Shown here in pieces: positions 7,367-29,263 of a stretch of 41,415 nt of DNA (the first letter of the stretch is position 1; every line of letters begins with the position of its first letter). The position numbers and the translations under genes are program-made. Origin of the DNA: Cardinium endosymbiont cBtQ1 of Bemisia tabaci (GTDB lineage: Bacteria > Bacteroidota > Bacteroidia > Cytophagales > Amoebophilaceae); the NCBI RefSeq assembly GCF_000689375.1, contig NZ_CBQZ010000006.1:1-41415 (forward strand), given 5' to 3'. The notes below the pieces were generated by a model. It was not told the origin of the DNA. It did no database searches and was given only the letters and a program-made list of their open reading frames with translations.

Positions 7367-7921
7367 ATGGATGCATTACAGTGGTATGTGCTTAAAGTAG
7401 TCACTAAGCAAGAAGAAAAAGTAAAAGCCAATCTACAAGTAGAGCTTGTAAAAAATAATTTACAGCAAATTGTTGGCGAGATATTGATACCTTACGAAAA
7501 GGTATATGAAGTCCGTTCTGGGAAAAAGTATGTAAAAAATAGAAATTTATTTCCTGGCTATATATTTTTGCAGGCAGATCTTGCAAACGGCTTATTGGTA
7601 CAGTTATTAAAAGGTATAACAGGTGCCTTGGGGTTCTTAGGTGTGAAAGGGTGGCGTGGGACTCCTGTTCCATTGAGTCAAACAGAAGTAAATAGAATTA
7701 TAGGTAAAACCAATAGCCTTGAATCTAGTGATTTAAAGTTAAACGCTATTTTTGCCCTAGGAGAAGTAGTTGAGATTATAGATGGACCTTTTGCAGGTTT
7801 TTCTGGAAAAGTTCAAGAAATTTTTGAAGAAAAGAAAACACTTAATGTAGTGGTTAAAATTTTTGATGAGCGGAGTACACCTGTAGAGCTAAGTTATACG
7901 CAGGTTAAAAAGCTTTTCTAA
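7367..7921 (+). CDS. nusG: transcription termination/antitermination protein NusG
   Basis: NusG binds the RNA polymerase clamp and couples transcription to translation and Rho. It has 184 residues. The NGN domain starts with WYVLKVVTKQEEKVKANL and contains RNLFPGYIFLQADL; it is followed by the KOW motif around residues 128-160 (GEVVEIIDGPFAGFSGKVQEI). No extra domain is inserted. It lies between secE and rplK as usual. Confidence 0.96.
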   Translation: MDALQWYVLKVVTKQEEKVKANLQVELVKNNLQQIVGEILIPYEKVYEVRSGKKYVKNRNLFPGYIFLQADLANGLLVQLLKGITGALGFLGVKGWRGTPVPLSQTEVNRIIGKTNSLESSDLKLNAIFALGEVVEIIDGPFAGFSGKVQEIFEEKKTLNVVVKIFDERSTPVELSYTQVKKLF

Positions 7922-7948
7922 TGCTTTGTAAATATGCCTGTAAAGCAT
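7921..7948 (+). promoter_or_regulatory. hairpin between nusG and rplK
   Basis: ATGCTTT at 7921-7927 pairs perfectly with AAAGCAT at 7942-7948 around a 14-base loop; one inner G-T pair is possible. It begins on the last base of the nusG stop codon, in the 45-bp nusG-rplK gap, and is followed by a T/A-rich run. It could be an attenuator, a processing site or a weak terminator controlling the ribosomal-protein/polymerase genes. Function is unproven. Confidence 0.35.
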
Positions 7949-7966
7949 TTGTAAAATTTATATAAT

Positions 7967-8410
7967 ATGTCTAAGCCAGTTTTAGGTTATGTAAAGTTAA
8001 GGGTTAAGGGTGGTTCAGCCAATCCTTCTCCACCAGTAGGTCCCGCATTAGGTAGTAAGGGTATCAATATTATGGAGTTCTGTAAGCAGTTTAATGCCAG
8101 AACAAAAGATCAGCAAGGAGAAATTGTACCTGTAATCATTACAGTTTATCAAGACAAGTCTTTTGACTTCATCGTTAAAACATCTCCTACTGTTATTGCC
8201 ATTATGAAGCTTTCAGAAATTGCAAAAGGCTCTCCTGAGTCCAATAGGCGTAAAGTGGCCAGTATTAGTTGGGAACAGATTCAACAAATTGCAGTAGAAA
8301 AGCTTCGAGATTTAAACACCTTAGATATACATGCCGCGATGCGTATGGTAGCTGGAACAGCAAGAAGTATGGGTGTTACGGTACAAGGTACTGCCCCTTG
8401 GGTTAAATAA
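7967..8410 (+). CDS. rplK: 50S ribosomal protein L11
   Basis: L11 binds the GTPase-associated region of 23S rRNA. It has 147 residues, as expected. The N-terminal domain contains the proline-rich [20 protein letters not shown] hinge, and the C-terminal rRNA-binding domain includes [12 protein letters not shown]. It starts the L11-L1-L10-L12 group, with rplA beginning 5 bp after its stop. Confidence 0.98.
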
Positions 8411-8415
8411 AAGAG

Positions 8416-9114
8416 ATGAAAATGGCAATTCAAAAAAAGAATAAGCATAGTGCAACAGATAATGCTAAAGAAGCCTATACTTTAACCGAGGCTGTTCAGC
8501 TGGTGCAAAAAAGTACTTCTACAAAGTTTGATGCTTCGATGGATGTTGCAGTTCGCTTGGGTGTAGACCCTAAAAGGTCTGACCAAATGGTAAGGGGAAC
8601 AGTTTCTTTGCCACATGGAACAGGTAAATCTTGTAGGATCTTAGTGCTCTGTACAGCTGATAAAGAACAAGAAGCCAAGCAGGCTGGTGCAGATTATGTA
8701 GGGTTAGACGACTTTATTGAAAAGATAGCAGCTGGGTGGACAGATATAGATGTGATTATAACGATGCCAACCGTTATGGTTAAACTGGGTAGATTGGGTA
8801 AAATATTAGGCCCTCGTGGCCTTATGCCTAATCCTAGGGTAGGTACTGTAACAATGGATGTAGCTAAAATGGTTAAAGAGGTAAAGGGTGGGAAGTTAAG
8901 TTTTAAGGTAGATAAATATGGCATTGTACATAGTAGTGTAGGTCGTGCATCTTTTCCACAGGAAAAAATAGTAGAAAATGTGATGGAGCTGTTAAAAGCG
9001 ATTGTTAAATTAAAGCCTGCCTCCTCAAAAGGGCTTTACGTAAATAGTATTAGTCTTTCTAGCACGATGAGTAGAGGCGTTTTTGTAGATAGGAGTATTG
9101 CCGTTGGGCTTTAG
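8416..9114 (+). CDS. rplA: 50S ribosomal protein L1
   Basis: L1 forms the mobile stalk at the E site and in many bacteria represses its own L11 operon; no L1-like mRNA site was identified here. The protein has 232 residues and shows the family signature around [20 protein letters not shown]. The start may be the ATG at 8416 or the one at 8422; both follow the rplK stop closely. Its stop at 9112-9114 lies 4 bp before the preferred rplJ start. Confidence 0.97.
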
Positions 9115-9118
9115 AAAA

Positions 9119-9658
9119 ATGAAACGAGAAGAAAAATTACAGGTTATAGAAAGTCTAGTAGAAAAATTTTCTGCTTTCGACTGCTTTTATGTAGTAGACG
9201 CTATGGGGCTTACTGTAGAACAGGTAAATAAATTTAGAAAAAGTTGTGCAGAACAAAATATAGTCTATCAGGTAGCTAAAAATACCCTGATACAAAAGGC
9301 CCTAGAACGATCTGAAAAATGTACCGCCCATGCGCCTGCTTTTTCAAGCGTATTAAAAGGATTTTCAGGTATTTTATTTAGCCGTGATAGTGGCCGTGCT
9401 CCTGGAAAAATGTTAAAAGCTTTTTTAGAAGCCGAAAAGTTAAACTTGCCTGTTTTAAAAGCTGCTTCGATTTATGGTGATTTATTTATTGGCGCAGAGC
9501 ACTTGGATCGGTTAACAAACTTAAAATCAAAAGAAGAGATTTTGGCCGATATTATCACGCTTTTGAAATCTCCTATTTTAAATGTACTAGCTACAATGCA
9601 ATCTGGCGAGAAACGTTTGATGGGAGTGATAGAAACTTTTTTGAAAGCATCAACTTAA
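9119..9658 (+). CDS. rplJ: 50S ribosomal protein L10
   Basis: L10 anchors the L7/L12 dimers to the ribosome. I chose the ATG at 9119 (MKREEKLQVIESLVEKF, 179 residues) over the upstream ATG at 9098, because the longer form overlaps rplA and adds seven residues (MPLGFRK) unlike the family N-terminus. The N-terminal rRNA-binding domain contains YQVAKNTLIQKAL, and the C-terminal helix that binds L12 ends near AST. The usual order rplA-rplJ-rplL holds. Confidence 0.95.
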   Translation: MKREEKLQVIESLVEKFSAFDCFYVVDAMGLTVEQVNKFRKSCAEQNIVYQVAKNTLIQKALERSEKCTAHAPAFSSVLKGFSGILFSRDSGRAPGKMLKAFLEAEKLNLPVLKAASIYGDLFIGAEHLDRLTNLKSKEEILADIITLLKSPILNVLATMQSGEKRLMGVIETFLKAST

Positions 9659-24180: not shown

Positions 24181-27100
24181 ATGATTTACTTCAATATGGC
24201 TATTGTAATAGTAGCAACTTTTTTATTATCAACCTTAGTGGTAGGTATTTACTTTAGTAAAAAAAAACCCACTTTTCGAGAATATGCGGTAGGGAATAAA
24301 CAATTTACTACGGCTACCTTGGTAGCTACGGTGTTGGCTACTTTTTTTGAAGGAGGTGGGTTAGTTCGTAATGTAGAGTGTATTCATGACCTTGGTTTGT
24401 GGTTCATAGTCGTTTTGCTTATAGTACCTTTTGGTATGTGTACTATTAGCAAATTATCCTTACGTATGGGGCCATTCATGCAACACTTCTCGACAGCAGA
24501 GACAATGGGTAGTATCTATGGTAGATATCCAAGGTTTATAACTGTGTTGGTGAGTATTTGTCGAAACATCGTTCTAATTACTTCTCAAATCATCATAATG
24601 TCCCATGCTATTAGTATGTGCGTAATCTCATCTAACCCCTATATAATACCGATATTTTCTACATTAATTCTTATTTTCTATTCTATGTTTGGAGGAGTTC
24701 GCGTTGTTACTTTTACAGATGTGTTTCAATTTATAACCTTTGCAATTATTATTCCACTTCTTTCTTGGTTTATGTTTGTAAATGTAGAAAAACCAGTTGC
24801 AACAATTATTCCCATACTACAGAATTACACTAAATTTCAGTTTAACGAATTACTTAACACAAAACTAATAGGTATGTTGCTACTTTTGCTAGCTGATATG
24901 CCAAGTAATATAGTAGAACCCGCTCTTATGCAGCGTGTTTACATGGCTTCTAGTCCTACTCAGGCACAAAAGGTTTTTTGGTATGCTTCTGTTTTTGGCT
25001 GTATAATTCAGGTTTTTATAATTTTAATCGGTCTATTTACTTTTGTGGGAGCACCAGATTTACCCAAAGAAGAGATATGGAGTTATATAGTAACCCATAT
25101 CCCTCCTCTTTTTAAGGGTTTTATTACGATTAGTTTGCTCGCTATGGCAATGTCTACAGCCGATTCTGCTTTAAATACTTGTTCTGTTATGGTCGGACAT
25201 GATATCGTACAGAGCTTACAAAAAGAAATTCCTGATACCCGTAAGCTTACAATAGCTAAAACTACGACACTCATAATTGGTCTACTATCTATGATGGTAG
25301 CTTTTAAGTGTAACGATCTGTTGAAATTAGTGTATTGGTCCCTTGATTGCAGTGTACCTATATTAACTGCTCCCTTTATTTTAGCTATTTTAGGTTTTCG
25401 AAGTAGCTCCTCGATAGCTTTGATCGGTATGACCACCGGCCTACTTACTATTTTGGCCTGGAACAAGTGGCTTGAACCTATAATAGAAATAGATGGAGCT
25501 TTCGTAGCTATGCTTGCCAATGGCTTTGCTATGCTAGCGGCCCACTATTTACTCAAACAGCCAGATGGTTCCGGTTGGGTCAAACCCGACAACGTATTTA
25601 AACAACTCCAACAAGAGAATGCCCGCAAGCGCACAGAGCGAAAAGAAGCCATTAAAAACGCTTGGGCCAATAGAAAAAACACCTTAGCCAATCTGATAAC
25701 CAGTGACCTTACCCTATATTTAATAGGACTTTATGCAATCACTACTGCCATTCTAAGTTATTGGTTTATTAGACCAGATTGCATCCATGCTGCCCTATGT
25801 CAAGTGGTTGTAGGGGCTTTTTTTATAGTTTCTAAAGCTTTCTTGGGCAGAATACTTCCCAACTGGTTTATTAACCTAGTTTCGCTGATAACCTTAGCCA
25901 TTTATCTACCTTTAAAATTGATTGCGAACTGGTGGGACATGGTAGATCCCATCTTTAGTCTAGCTTTATCTTTGACCCATTCTGCGGTAATCTTATGGAT
26001 ATTGCCCCTCTATCTTGCTATAGGGGCGGTAACCACTACATTTTTAGGGGGCCTTTTTGCATTTGGCTGGTCTTTTGCCCTATTCGCTTCCCTATGGCCG
26101 CTATTGCTAGCGGGCCTATGTATGTTTTCGATTATAGTCTATTTTAAAACCAAAATAAATAAGCTTACCCGACAAAATATTTACCTGAAAGATCAAAAAA
26201 AGATTACTGCCTCCCAACAACTAAAAGCCTCTCTCTATGAGGCGGCTCTGGTTCCCTCCACGCGTGCTACCTCTCCTAGAGGATATGGATCCATTTTAGC
26301 ACAAGTAGTGCGTAAAGTAGAAGAATCTATTTCCTTTTTAGACAACCATACACCCCTTTATAAAGAAGATTTCCAAACCATTATCCATAAACTTTACGAT
26401 TGGATAGCCTATTTTAACAGCAGAGAAGCTGCCAAAGCCCATGCACTATTGCAGCCTAACAATATTACTTTAGATAAGCTGATTCGTACAGTAGAGGTTA
26501 GTTTATCCCAGGAGATAGAACATCCACCTAAACTACTGGTAAAAAAAATAAAATCGCCTAGTAATCCATTAGCTACCGATGTAGTATGTGATATCCATCA
26601 GGTAACCTATGCATTGGTTAAAATTATCTTACGAATGGGTAAGCTCACTCAAACCATTCCACCTATTGTTAAAGTAGCACTCCATCCTACTGCTTTGCAA
26701 TTTAAACAAGCTGATGGTATTGGAAGCAGTGGTCCGGTCTGTATCGATTTTCAAGCTATTGCGCTAGTCATCAGCCCGTCTACTGTGCATCATACTGACC
26801 TACCTAAGGTAAAAGGGTGCTATGATCCAATAGATTGTGTGGATCTTAAAGAAGAAAAACAGGCGCCACCATCTATAGATCTGGAGCAAGATACCCTATC
26901 CAGTGTAGTCCGTGCCCATTATGGCTATCTAGACGCTTCTCTTGATGAAAAGAAAATTTATACCCTAATGGTATTCCCTATAGATGTTACCGATATTCTA
27001 GATAAAATGACTGCTAGATTGCCTATAGATTCCTTAACTAGAGAAGCCCCTATTACGCCTAAAGAACAAGCTGATTCGATGATGAAGCTCATGCAATTCC

Positions 27101-27708
27101 ATGACTATGTCTGCAAAGCTTCGTCTGAAGCGGATCCTATTGATGTAAAGATTATTTCAGGTATACTTTTATTGCTCAGGAAGCACTTTGGCTTTAAGCG
27201 CCATATTTCTGGACAATTGTTTTATGTACGGGCAGTAGGGATTGCCCAACTGGTAATAGATTGGGTTTTCCACTCTCCTAAGGTGGTGTACGCTGCTTTG
27301 CTTTATGGATTGGTACGCTGTACCTGTTTGCCCCTTTCTTATATCAAGGAACATTATAACTTAGGCGTTTACGTTTTTGTATCCAATGTAATAAAAATAG
27401 ACAAACGGGAGGAGTTAGACCATCCTTCTTTGCTTTATGTCCAAAATAGACTGGCACAAGCCATTAAAGAAGAACACGTACAGCTTTCTGTACTATTTAT
27501 CAAACTAGCCGAACGGCTTTATGACCTACGCCATGCAGCTGGCTATATCCATTTAACAGAGGTAAAGCATATGGCACAAGAAACACTCAATATAGATGTA
27601 CAAATAGCCCATACATACCTGGACCCAGCAATAGGGCAAGCATTAGAAAAGGCTGCCAAAGAAGCATTGAAGCTCTGTACCCTTTCCGAAAATGACCAAC
27701 ATAATTAG
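24181..27708 (+). CDS. symporter-like transporter fused to degenerate kinase-like and RelA/SpoT HD-like parts
   Basis: This 1175-residue protein has four parts. Residues about 1-460 resemble the sodium:solute symporter (SSF) fold: about 13 hydrophobic helices with YAVGNKQFTTATLVATVLAT near the start and GGVRVVTFTDVFQF. Residues about 510-655 add a second cluster of hydrophobic helices. Residues about 660-940 resemble a histidine kinase core: CDIHQVTYALVKIILRMGK (about 801-819) recalls an N box and VVRAHYGYLDAS recalls the end of an ATPase domain, but no phosphoacceptor H-box or glycine-rich G boxes are evident. Residues about 960-1165 resemble the RelA/SpoT hydrolase HD domain: YAALLYGLVRCTCLPLSYI, where the family has LLHDVxEDT, and VLFIKLAERLYDLRHA. 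The HD pair is lost, so hydrolase activity is unlikely. A sensory or transport-linked scaffold is inferred. Start may be Met1 or Met6. Confidence 0.75.
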   Translation: MIYFNMAIVIVATFLLSTLVVGIYFSKKKPTFREYAVGNKQFTTATLVATVLATFFEGGGLVRNVECIHDLGLWFIVVLLIVPFGMCTISKLSLRMGPFMQHFSTAETMGSIYGRYPRFITVLVSICRNIVLITSQIIIMSHAISMCVISSNPYIIPIFSTLILIFYSMFGGVRVVTFTDVFQFITFAIIIPLLSWFMFVNVEKPVATIIPILQNYTKFQFNELLNTKLIGMLLLLLADMPSNIVEPALMQRVYMASSPTQAQKVFWYASVFGCIIQVFIILIGLFTFVGAPDLPKEEIWSYIVTHIPPLFKGFITISLLAMAMSTADSALNTCSVMVGHDIVQSLQKEIPDTRKLTIAKTTTLIIGLLSMMVAFKCNDLLKLVYWSLDCSVPILTAPFILAILGFRSSSSIALIGMTTGLLTILAWNKWLEPIIEIDGAFVAMLANGFAMLAAHYLLKQPDGSGWVKPDNVFKQLQQENARKRTERKEAIKNAWANRKNTLANLITSDLTLYLIGLYAITTAILSYWFIRPDCIHAALCQVVVGAFFIVSKAFLGRILPNWFINLVSLITLAIYLPLKLIANWWDMVDPIFSLALSLTHSAVILWILPLYLAIGAVTTTFLGGLFAFGWSFALFASLWPLLLAGLCMFSIIVYFKTKINKLTRQNIYLKDQKKITASQQLKASLYEAALVPSTRATSPRGYGSILAQVVRKVEESISFLDNHTPLYKEDFQTIIHKLYDWIAYFNSREAAKAHALLQPNNITLDKLIRTVEVSLSQEIEHPPKLLVKKIKSPSNPLATDVVCDIHQVTYALVKIILRMGKLTQTIPPIVKVALHPTALQFKQADGIGSSGPVCIDFQAIALVISPSTVHHTDLPKVKGCYDPIDCVDLKEEKQAPPSIDLEQDTLSSVVRAHYGYLDASLDEKKIYTLMVFPIDVTDILDKMTARLPIDSLTREAPITPKEQADSMMKLMQFHDYVCKASSEADPIDVKIISGILLLLRKHFGFKRHISGQLFYVRAVGIAQLVIDWVFHSPKVVYAALLYGLVRCTCLPLSYIKEHYNLGVYVFVSNVIKIDKREELDHPSLLYVQNRLAQAIKEEHVQLSVLFIKLAERLYDLRHAAGYIHLTEVKHMAQETLNIDVQIAHTYLDPAIGQALEKAAKEALKLCTLSENDQHN

Positions 27709-29263
27709 TCGGCCCTGAAATACCATATAATTATTTGTTAATCAGCAAATAAATGGTTAAATTTATATATGGTTAATAACCAGTTTTTAGGTTGTTTTGT
27801 ATAAAAAGCTTGCAAAATAAGGATGAAATCTAAGAAAATAAATAATAGCCTTGAGCGTTTGTTTGAGCAACGCTTATCTAGTTTTCTCAACCCGAAACAT
27901 CCATTATTCCAGTTATCTGATTCGATTCCTTTTCACTCCTTAGCATCAGATTTAGACCGCGGTTTTAGCTATGGACCTGGTCAACCTCCTTTGCCTATTC
28001 GTTTAATTATAGGTCTTCTCATTATCAGTCATATGTATAATATTTCTGATGAACAAGTAGTGGTTAGATGGGTAGAAAAACCCTTATTGGCAATACTTTT
28101 GTGGATATGATTATTTTCAGTTTAAGATAGCCTTGTAACCCCAGTTCATTGACCCGTTGGCGCCATAGATTAGGTCAAGAAGGTCTCAATAAGATTTTAT
28201 CTTATGACTATAGACTTAGCGCTAAAAAAAAAAGTACTGACCCGAAAAGAACTTGAAAAAGTTATAGCTGATACTACTGTAATGGAGAAAAATATCCGTT
28301 ACCCAACTGACTCTTCTTTGCTTAATAAATCCAGAGAAAAATTGGTCAGTATAGCCAAGAAAACAGGTATTAAACTGCGTCAAACTTATCAGCGTTTAGG
28401 TCTATCTATCAAACGTAAAGTTGATTGCTATGCTCATGCTAAACAGTATAAACGTTTATCTAAAGGCATTAAAACATTAAAAACCTATCTTGGTAGAGTA
28501 GTCAGAGATGTAGAACGTTCTATACAATCCTCTGATGATCTAATACGGAATCAATTTACCAATCTACTATCTATAAGTAAAAAACTTATAAACCAATCAA
28601 AAAAAAGTAAAGATAAAATTTATAGCATCCATGAACCATCCGTCTACTGTGTAAGTAAAGGTAAGTCTAAACATCCTTATGAGTTTGGTTGCAAGGTACA
28701 ATTTACAGTAACGCATAAAAAAGGTTTAATTGTTTCAACAGAAGCAATACATCCTAATGCTTACGATGGCCATACTTTGCAGAAGAGTTTATTACAAGCC
28801 GAGCAATTATCTGGTACCAAAGTAAAGTATGCTTTTGTAGATAAAGCCTACCGGGGTAATAATATACCTGTTAGTGAATGTAATATATTTATAAGTGGTT
28901 CTAAAAGGGGAATAACGCCTGCTCTAAAAAAAGCTATAAAAAGAAGATCTTCTATTGAACCGCATATTGGTCATATGAAATCCGATGGTAAATTATCTGT
29001 TAACTATTTGAAAGGTATTCTAGGAGATAAACTTAACGTTATTTTATGTGCTATTGCTCATAACCTACGACTGATTACAAGAAAGTTATTCTTAACACAC
29101 TCACAATCACATAAATTAAAACCTATATAATTAAAATTCTTAATCCAAAACCAGTTATACCTATATCTTGGGTAGGAAAAATAGAGCGCCTGCTAAACCA
29201 TAAATATTGTAAAAAAAGATCCATTCAATAAATTTATTCAAAAATAATATTTCAGGGCCGACT
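27707..29263 (+). mobile_element. IS5-type element copy A (1557 bp) with 4-bp target duplication
   Basis: The ends are perfect inverted repeats, AGTCGGCCCTGAAATA at 27707 and its complement ending at 29263. The flanking AATT at 27703-27706 and 29264-29267 is a 4-bp target duplication. The transposase is split by frameshifts. A second copy in opposite orientation is at 36994-38556. The element inserted within the stop codon of the fusion transporter gene and regenerated TAG from its own first two bases. It ends 32 bp before the murE 3' end. Confidence 0.93.
27823..29130 (+). pseudogene. IS5-type transposase, frameshifted (copy A)
   Basis: The first frame (27823-28110) encodes the N-terminal DUF772-like part up to VVRWVEK. 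Then an extra A in GTAGAAAAACC (copy B has one A fewer) shifts the frame. Further single-base indels near 28127, 28186 and 28210 relative to copy B precede the second frame (28204-29130). That frame carries the DDE domain: VIADTTVME, VDKAYRG and RRSSIEPHIGHMKSDG. Merging the undamaged parts of both copies gives a normal single transposase, so each copy is separately damaged. Translation as two pieces is unlikely to give an active enzyme unless slippage on the A-runs restores frame. Confidence 0.85.

Follow-up and report, generated by a model that had tools for sequence, protein, structure and literature searches.

The window analysed here is a stretch of 41,415 nucleotides from the Cardinium endosymbiont cBtQ1 of Bemisia tabaci (contig NZ_CBQZ010000006.1 of an assembly of 1,012,588 bases in 11 contigs). 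Our subject is the gene P0001 on its forward strand, which an earlier sequence-only reading had described as a 1175-codon frame joining a sodium/solute symporter (SSF) domain, a second membrane block, an inactive-looking histidine kinase region and a dead HD domain of the RelA/SpoT hydrolase type. The frame is real: positions 24181-27708 (+) encode, stop-free from ATG to stop, a single protein of 1175 amino acids. We place this protein in a pseudohydrolase clade of a family with the order SSF, membrane block, kinase-like module and HD.

Domains of P0001 and its altered HD site

Residues 1-460 (positions 24181-25560; all parts lie on the + strand) form the SSF domain, with matches in Pfam (residues 119-420, 37 bits, E = 2.5e-9, above the cut-off of 22.8), in NCBIfam (TIGR00813, 1.5e-12) and among PDB sequences, where choline transporter structures were found at 1.8e-9. 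An MSTADS segment in this part is conserved across the family and may resemble the Na2-site Ser/Thr of PutP. Then follow a second membrane block with several hydrophobic segments by hydropathy (residues ~461-660, 25561-26160), a degenerate histidine-kinase-like module (residues 661-985, 26161-27135) and an HD domain of the RelA/SpoT hydrolase type, which we call a pseudo-HD (residues 986-1165, 27136-27675). Pfam HD_4 matched residues 1001-1144 (32.7 bits, 7.7e-8, above the cut-off of 27.2), and a PDB sequence search aligned residues 1000-1146 with the RelA/SpoT chain 1vj7 at 4.3e-4. NCBIfam matched the SSF and HD regions again, below the model cut-offs. With SSF and HD_4 both above the Pfam cut-offs, the four-part architecture proposed earlier is in essence borne out. 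Structure prediction with AlphaFold2 and four input sequences was of low confidence, with a predicted local distance difference test (pLDDT) score of 36.1 and a predicted template modelling (pTM) score of 0.22 for residues 660-1175, and values of 49.5 and 0.51 for residues 980-1170. The latter model is all-helical; Foldseek placed Mesh1 (3nr1) at the top of its matches, but at an E-value of 0.49 and a template modelling score of 0.25.

The HD site was compared in an alignment of 143 HD-bearing proteins from the fetched stretches, from which 3 RelA/SpoT homologue (RSH) proteins and 2 duplicate rows of genome G038 were removed, leaving 138. The pseudo group (47 rows) was picked by a Tyr at position 77, and the other 91 rows are called non-pseudo. 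Numbering follows RelSeq, in which we take the metal ligands to be His53, His77, Asp78 and Asp144 and the substrate contacts to be Arg44 and Asn148. Among the 91 non-pseudo rows, Arg44 was found in 90, His53 in 90, His77 in 91, Asp78 in 90, Glu81 in 82, Asp82 in 81, Asp144 in 90 and Asn148 in 90. All four metal ligands are kept in 89/91 of these rows (89/138 overall) and the full eight-letter pattern in 80/91; by these residues, most family members look like working (p)ppGpp (guanosine tetra- and pentaphosphate) hydrolases.

The 47 pseudo rows, which come from eight genomes, all of the Cardinium genus, share the five replacements R44H, H53R, H77Y, D144E and N148D. In P0001 these are His1008 (27202-27204; H in 47/47 pseudo rows), Arg1017 (27229-27231; R in 47/47), Tyr1042 (27304-27306; Y in 47/47, the letter that defines the group), Glu1111 within KLAERLYDL (27511-27513; E in 46/46 lettered rows) and Asp1115 (27523-27525; D in 46/46 lettered rows); positions 144 and 148 were scored in 46 rows because one of the 47 is truncated. 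Pairwise HD identity within the group falls to 26%, with a median of 50%, and 13 of 204 alignment columns are fully invariant, including the five replaced positions and Arg145. Because its metal ligands are replaced by R1017, Y1042, G1043 and E1111, P0001 is not classed as an RSH hydrolase, and its substrate-contact positions 44 and 148 are changed too (H1008, D1115). The dead RelA/SpoT domain of the sequence-only reading is confirmed in this respect: LLYGLV (residues 1040-1045) occupies the place of the LLHD seen in relatives whose site is intact. We conclude from the alignment that the HD domain of P0001 is a (p)ppGpp hydrolase domain, predicted to be inactive, whose catalytic site has been swapped for a fixed alternative.

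A fixed alternative is also what a new active site would predict, since none of the five replaced positions varies among the pseudo rows. The pseudo-HD might then be an enzyme that acts on another nucleotide or without metal, and some small alarmone hydrolases do act on NADPH (PMC9765508). However, three of the four metal ligands are now R, Y and E, the fourth, at Asp78, differs between rows (D 26, E 11, G 10), as do the letters at positions 81 and 82. We regard such a changed enzyme as rather improbable.

The kinase-like module has a more distant relationship to known domains. HisKA and HATPase_c had no Pfam match in P0001 at E-values up to 10, and were absent among the 25 listed of the 36 Pfam families matched by 30 relatives. 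A profile of the region, built from 30 members that are all non-pseudo relatives, was searched against PDB, and the top three of 45 matches were sensor kinases (ZraS 1.2e-5, 7z8n 1.3e-5, 3a0r 6.6e-5). ZraS matched with a second, colinear piece that is very weak (6 bits), and many of the lower rows were coiled coils such as SNAP25. In hhalign, the region's pseudo and non-pseudo forms aligned with each other at a probability of 99.5%. The DHp part of the family alignment has no invariant His, the sole invariant His being that of AHYG near the end, and the catalytic boxes (phosphorylatable His, N and G boxes) were not seen in the module. These results suggest that the module is homologous to the DHp and ATPase domains of sensor kinases and is degenerate, in agreement with the inactive-looking kinase of the sequence-only reading.

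A search of the phylum with the module matched 141/395 genomes, and among the genomes listed with a match cBtQ1 was the sole family member. The matches listed outside cBtQ1 span positions ~6-216 of 337, with two exceptions reaching 296 and 299, and we read them as ordinary kinases. In cBtQ1 itself there are three HATPase_c matches, which we take from their sequences to be GyrB, MutL and HtpG. For this reason, no histidine kinase was found in cBtQ1 by this route (HisKA was not searched).

A transporter-HD family in the Amoebophilaceae

In the cBtQ1 genome, P0001 matched 24 rows including itself: four were long, one of them containing a stop, three lacked the SSF part, several had SSF only and several were broken. 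Two further full-length paralogs are 59-62% identical to P0001, and the alignment includes nine HD-bearing cBtQ1 proteins, of which seven are pseudo and two non-pseudo. A syntenic ortholog in Cardinium cEper1 is 76% identical. Among 21 Amoebophilaceae genomes, 19 match P0001 at 1e-15 and 18 have HD_4. These paralogs and orthologs rule out a lone chimera or an assembly artefact. The sequence-only reading had taken the fusion to be unusual, a view that does not stand: by its four-part order and common descent, P0001 fits a large SSF-kinase-HD family of the Amoebophilaceae, defined here, whose non-pseudo members mostly keep the metal ligands and part of which is already published, though little studied.

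The family is largest in the 1.19 Mb genome G038, which has 45 HD_4 matches and 35 full-length genes with HD; the 49 distinct family open reading frames in its fetched stretches together make up 11.5% of the genome (137.6 kb). Adjacent family genes of 3.5 kb lie there in stretches L180-L188 (about 178-212, 312-380, 397-423 and 461-472 kb), with classic and pseudo runs separate. Such runs of adjacent copies and the large differences in copy number are what a selfish or mobile family that brings the cell no benefit might produce as it spreads. One copy lies on the plasmid CP101109, and SSF/HD fragments have been listed as candidates for miniature inverted-repeat transposable elements (PMC12039267). 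The purifying selection described below and the syntenic ortholog in cEper1 argue against this explanation, which we provisionally consider improbable.

Beyond the Amoebophilaceae, 384/390 genomes of an order sample matched, scoring being limited to two candidates in each genome. In the matches listed, the aligned part was confined to the HD end of the query (about 791-1007), and most of the frames were 731-858 amino acids long. Among 30 listed of 149 plasmid records, two Cardinium plasmids matched SSF and HD together. A scan of viral contigs gave 21 pattern matches and no relative of P0001. On a plasmid of the D. farinae Cardinium (L200, CP101109, 1647-6012), a classic-motif fusion gene adjoins a NUDIX hydrolase gene; a Thermus NUDIX enzyme degrades ppGpp (PMC3153485).

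A tree of 136 kinase-HD regions, from which the 47th pseudo protein was left out as too short, contains a pseudo clade of 46 tips (44 by pattern, 2 off-pattern) with support of 1.0 and a stem of 2.01 substitutions per site. All its tips come from Cardinium-genus genomes, and all eight of those sampled are represented. Membrane segments, kinase-like module and pseudo-HD also occur together without SSF in several Cardinium genomes. In four of these, paired proteins of this kind are encoded close together on opposite strands (L031:2975-5218 and 7527-9383; L118, L126, L131). A second clade holds seven Cardinium-genome proteins, one per genome, with Q-N or R-N for E-D in the HD site. It includes P0003 (L030:2117-5470), whose SSF part is not recognised by Pfam.

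Selection, decay and the soluble RSH proteins

The ratio of nonsynonymous to synonymous substitution rates (dN/dS) was estimated pairwise by NG86, with bootstrap intervals, for the four regions of P0001. Against the cEper1 ortholog it was 0.30 for SSF, 0.52 for the second membrane block (the highest value), 0.36 for the kinase-like module and 0.143 (0.08-0.24) for HD. Against P0004 it was 0.129 (0.07-0.20) for HD and 0.19 for SSF, and against the paralog L038 the HD value was 0.107 (0.06-0.17). HD thus had the lowest ratio of the four regions in all three comparisons. Neighbouring genes gave 0.06 (rpoB) and 0.17-0.18 (two others). The dead version of HD therefore seems to be under purifying selection, as the sequence-only reading had proposed from the long open frame.

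Low HD ratios are difficult to reconcile with the view that the gene owes its retention to a sodium/solute symporter function, with an HD domain that merely stabilises or anchors and a C-terminal half without a signalling role. That view finds support in the conserved SSF part, in SSF-only paralogs of cBtQ1 at 36-43% identity and in published work that treats these genes as nutrient symporters (PMC5698495, PMC8831229). Under it, however, the HD ratio should not be the lowest, and the proteins that have kept membrane segments, kinase-like module and pseudo-HD but no SSF speak against it too. We consider it unlikely, although less so than the changed enzyme discussed above.

P0001 could also be a decaying duplicate that is intact only through youth. 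Broken family copies do occur in cBtQ1 (L034, L040), they too show low dN/dS, and P0002, together with its closest relatives in G122 (cEper1) and G215, is disrupted. The pseudo clade, however, is present with a uniform motif in all sampled Cardinium-genus genomes, and the interval of the HD ratio against the cEper1 ortholog stays low. A young pseudogene is thus disfavoured by both tree and dN/dS, and we think this explanation very improbable. Because the replacements are uniform at low sequence identity, fall in one clade and accompany HD ratios of 0.11-0.14, we favour a conserved pseudohydrolase over simple decay. The architecture, the family membership, the fixed alternative site and purifying selection are shown at the level of sequence.

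In P0002 (L029:2460-3780, G000:C1:217960-219280) the SSF part is split by ~0.84 kb of transposon-like DNA, which we take to be IS5-like, and the 1012-aa frame that remains has its ATG at the end of the inserted DNA. Of its closest relatives, the one in G122 has its HD in a separate frame and the one in G215 has 14 stops. Within one pair, the dS of the regions ranges from 0.21 to 0.83, a spread suggestive of gene conversion among family copies. At the P0001 locus of cEper1 (L111, 362-369 kb) there are two adjacent copies whose SSF dS to P0001 is 0.21 and 1.22, respectively, a contrast that suggests recombination between copies. Directly downstream of P0001, positions 27823-29130 of the window hold a frame that is found at further sites in the cBtQ1 genome and is presumably transposase-like.

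The RelA_SpoT synthetase domain was found in 18/21 Amoebophilaceae genomes. We aligned 23 RSH frames from 17 genomes; a weak match in G156 was not recovered. The synthetase site R-K-D-x-Y-E-Q-R is kept in 22/22 rows that cover it. Of 21 rows covering HD, only the 769-aa Rel of G194 keeps the whole HD pattern, and each of the other 20 (16 genomes) is without at least one of the four metal ligands. In G194, a fragmented assembly of ~530 contigs, the sole HD_4 match is its own Rel, and no fusion was seen. Fifteen of the 16 genomes with a degraded RSH HD have non-pseudo HD fusions or fragments in the alignment, and the remaining one, G206, has one by search only. The RSH protein of A. asiaticus keeps His53, His77 and Asp78, has Glu at 144 and is changed at 44, 81 and 148. 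Tyr at 77 and Glu at 144 also occur in the RSH proteins of G053, G108, G135, G189 and G206. From this pattern we infer that ppGpp hydrolysis may have moved from the soluble RSH proteins to the transporter fusions. The frame directly after the second synthetase-only RSH gene of cBtQ1 (L033:3583-4698) encodes what we take to be an ankyrin-repeat-like protein.

Proposed role and comparison with known systems

Our preferred explanation, to which we give a probability of about one half, is that P0001 is a conserved non-catalytic member of the transporter-HD family that regulates ppGpp by contact. Soluble synthetase-only RSH proteins would make ppGpp and transporter-fused HD proteins would destroy it. 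The SSF part would read the state of a solute or of Na+ and pass it through the kinase-like module, acting as a dimer module, to HD. P0001 would have lost hydrolysis, and probably substrate binding too, and would act by contact, either in mixed dimers with active copies or by binding a synthetase. In this way the solute state could set the ppGpp level without catalysis by P0001. The suggested role in ppGpp control derives from the active sisters and from the pattern in the RSH proteins. The sequence-only reading had proposed that the protein might sense a nutrient and might scaffold or titrate a partner in the stringent response, a reading that we also favour.

A more far-reaching version, which we put forward tentatively, is a split stringent response. 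In the Amoebophilaceae, Rel would have been split up, leaving one soluble protein for synthesis and many membrane hydrolases fused to transporters, each with an SSF receptor that reads a solute and each destroying ppGpp locally. The Cardinium pseudohydrolases, a class that evolved later, would veto or tune the active copies, or act in trans in place of the HD arm that the synthetase has lost.

Several observations weigh against regulation of ppGpp by P0001. The HD and SSF intervals overlap in the comparison with P0004 (0.07-0.20 and 0.14-0.25). Broken relatives also have low ratios (L040, 0.19-0.32 by region, with 0.24 for its 74 HD codons; L044, 0.28), so that dN/dS does not distinguish present from past constraint. 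P0002, the sole classic-motif copy of cBtQ1, is interrupted by the insertion and is not intact. Dimerisation through the kinase-like module is an assumption. The A. asiaticus RSH protein is listed by Atkinson 2011 as Rel[HS], with its HD counted as present (PMC3153485), and some activity of this degraded HD is conceivable. Finally, the cEper1 ortholog of P0001 was equated with AL022_RS01610/CAHE_0352 by counting genes from rpoC, and is probably this gene.

Expression data exist for these genes. In Cardinium cEper1 all 12 putative sodium/solute symporters are expressed, and its most strongly expressed genes include CAHE_0352 and CAHE_0796 (PMC5698495). In A. asiaticus, 10/19 symporter genes are down early and 10/19 are up at 72-144 h (PMC8831229). 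If regulation by contact is correct, the ppGpp pathway would no longer depend on a single bifunctional soluble enzyme: synthesis would fall to a soluble protein and breakdown to many membrane proteins linked to transporters, with regulation by a conserved dead subfamily. It would then become possible to test how nutrient transport can be tied directly to the amount of alarmone, what lies behind the abundance and high expression of 'sodium/solute symporters' in these symbionts, and by what means pseudoenzymes act in the stringent response.

Parts of this picture are in print, namely the RSH expansion (PMC3153485) and the link between spoT and cotransporter (PMC6232779). The former concerns rickSpo[H], a group of RSH proteins that have the hydrolase only and are present in many copies in Rickettsiales and in A. 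asiaticus (15 RSHs listed); its members are very probably the active sisters within the SSF-kinase-HD family. In that work they are grouped with HD-only proteins, neither 'symporter' nor 'transmembrane' appears anywhere in the text, and the pseudo clade does not figure in the available part of the Atkinson 2011 account (PMC3153485). Brown 2018 reported an ortholog group labelled spoT / sodium glucose cotransporter, a label that names both halves, with 18 homologs in Amoebophilus, 7 in cPpe, 3 in cEper1 and 2 in cBtQ1 (PMC6232779). Our alignment holds two non-pseudo and seven pseudo rows for cBtQ1, and HD inactivation is not mentioned in the available part of that paper. In the available parts of the open-licence literature, supplements not covered, we found no mention of the pseudohydrolase clade.

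Two better known systems are similar in outline. The SLC5sbd+HK or CbrA-like transporter-kinases have an SSF domain, then membrane segments and then a DHp/ATPase module (PMC5615194). A CbrA-like protein of Megaera (L201) has full HisKA and HATPase_c matches and no HD, whereas P0001 has lost the kinase boxes and gained an RSH-type HD. E. coli RelA is soluble and carries synthetase, TGS and ACT domains; P0001, in contrast, has a transporter and no synthetase. What P0001 shares with RelA is a retained, inactive HD domain of the same superfamily (PMC3153485).

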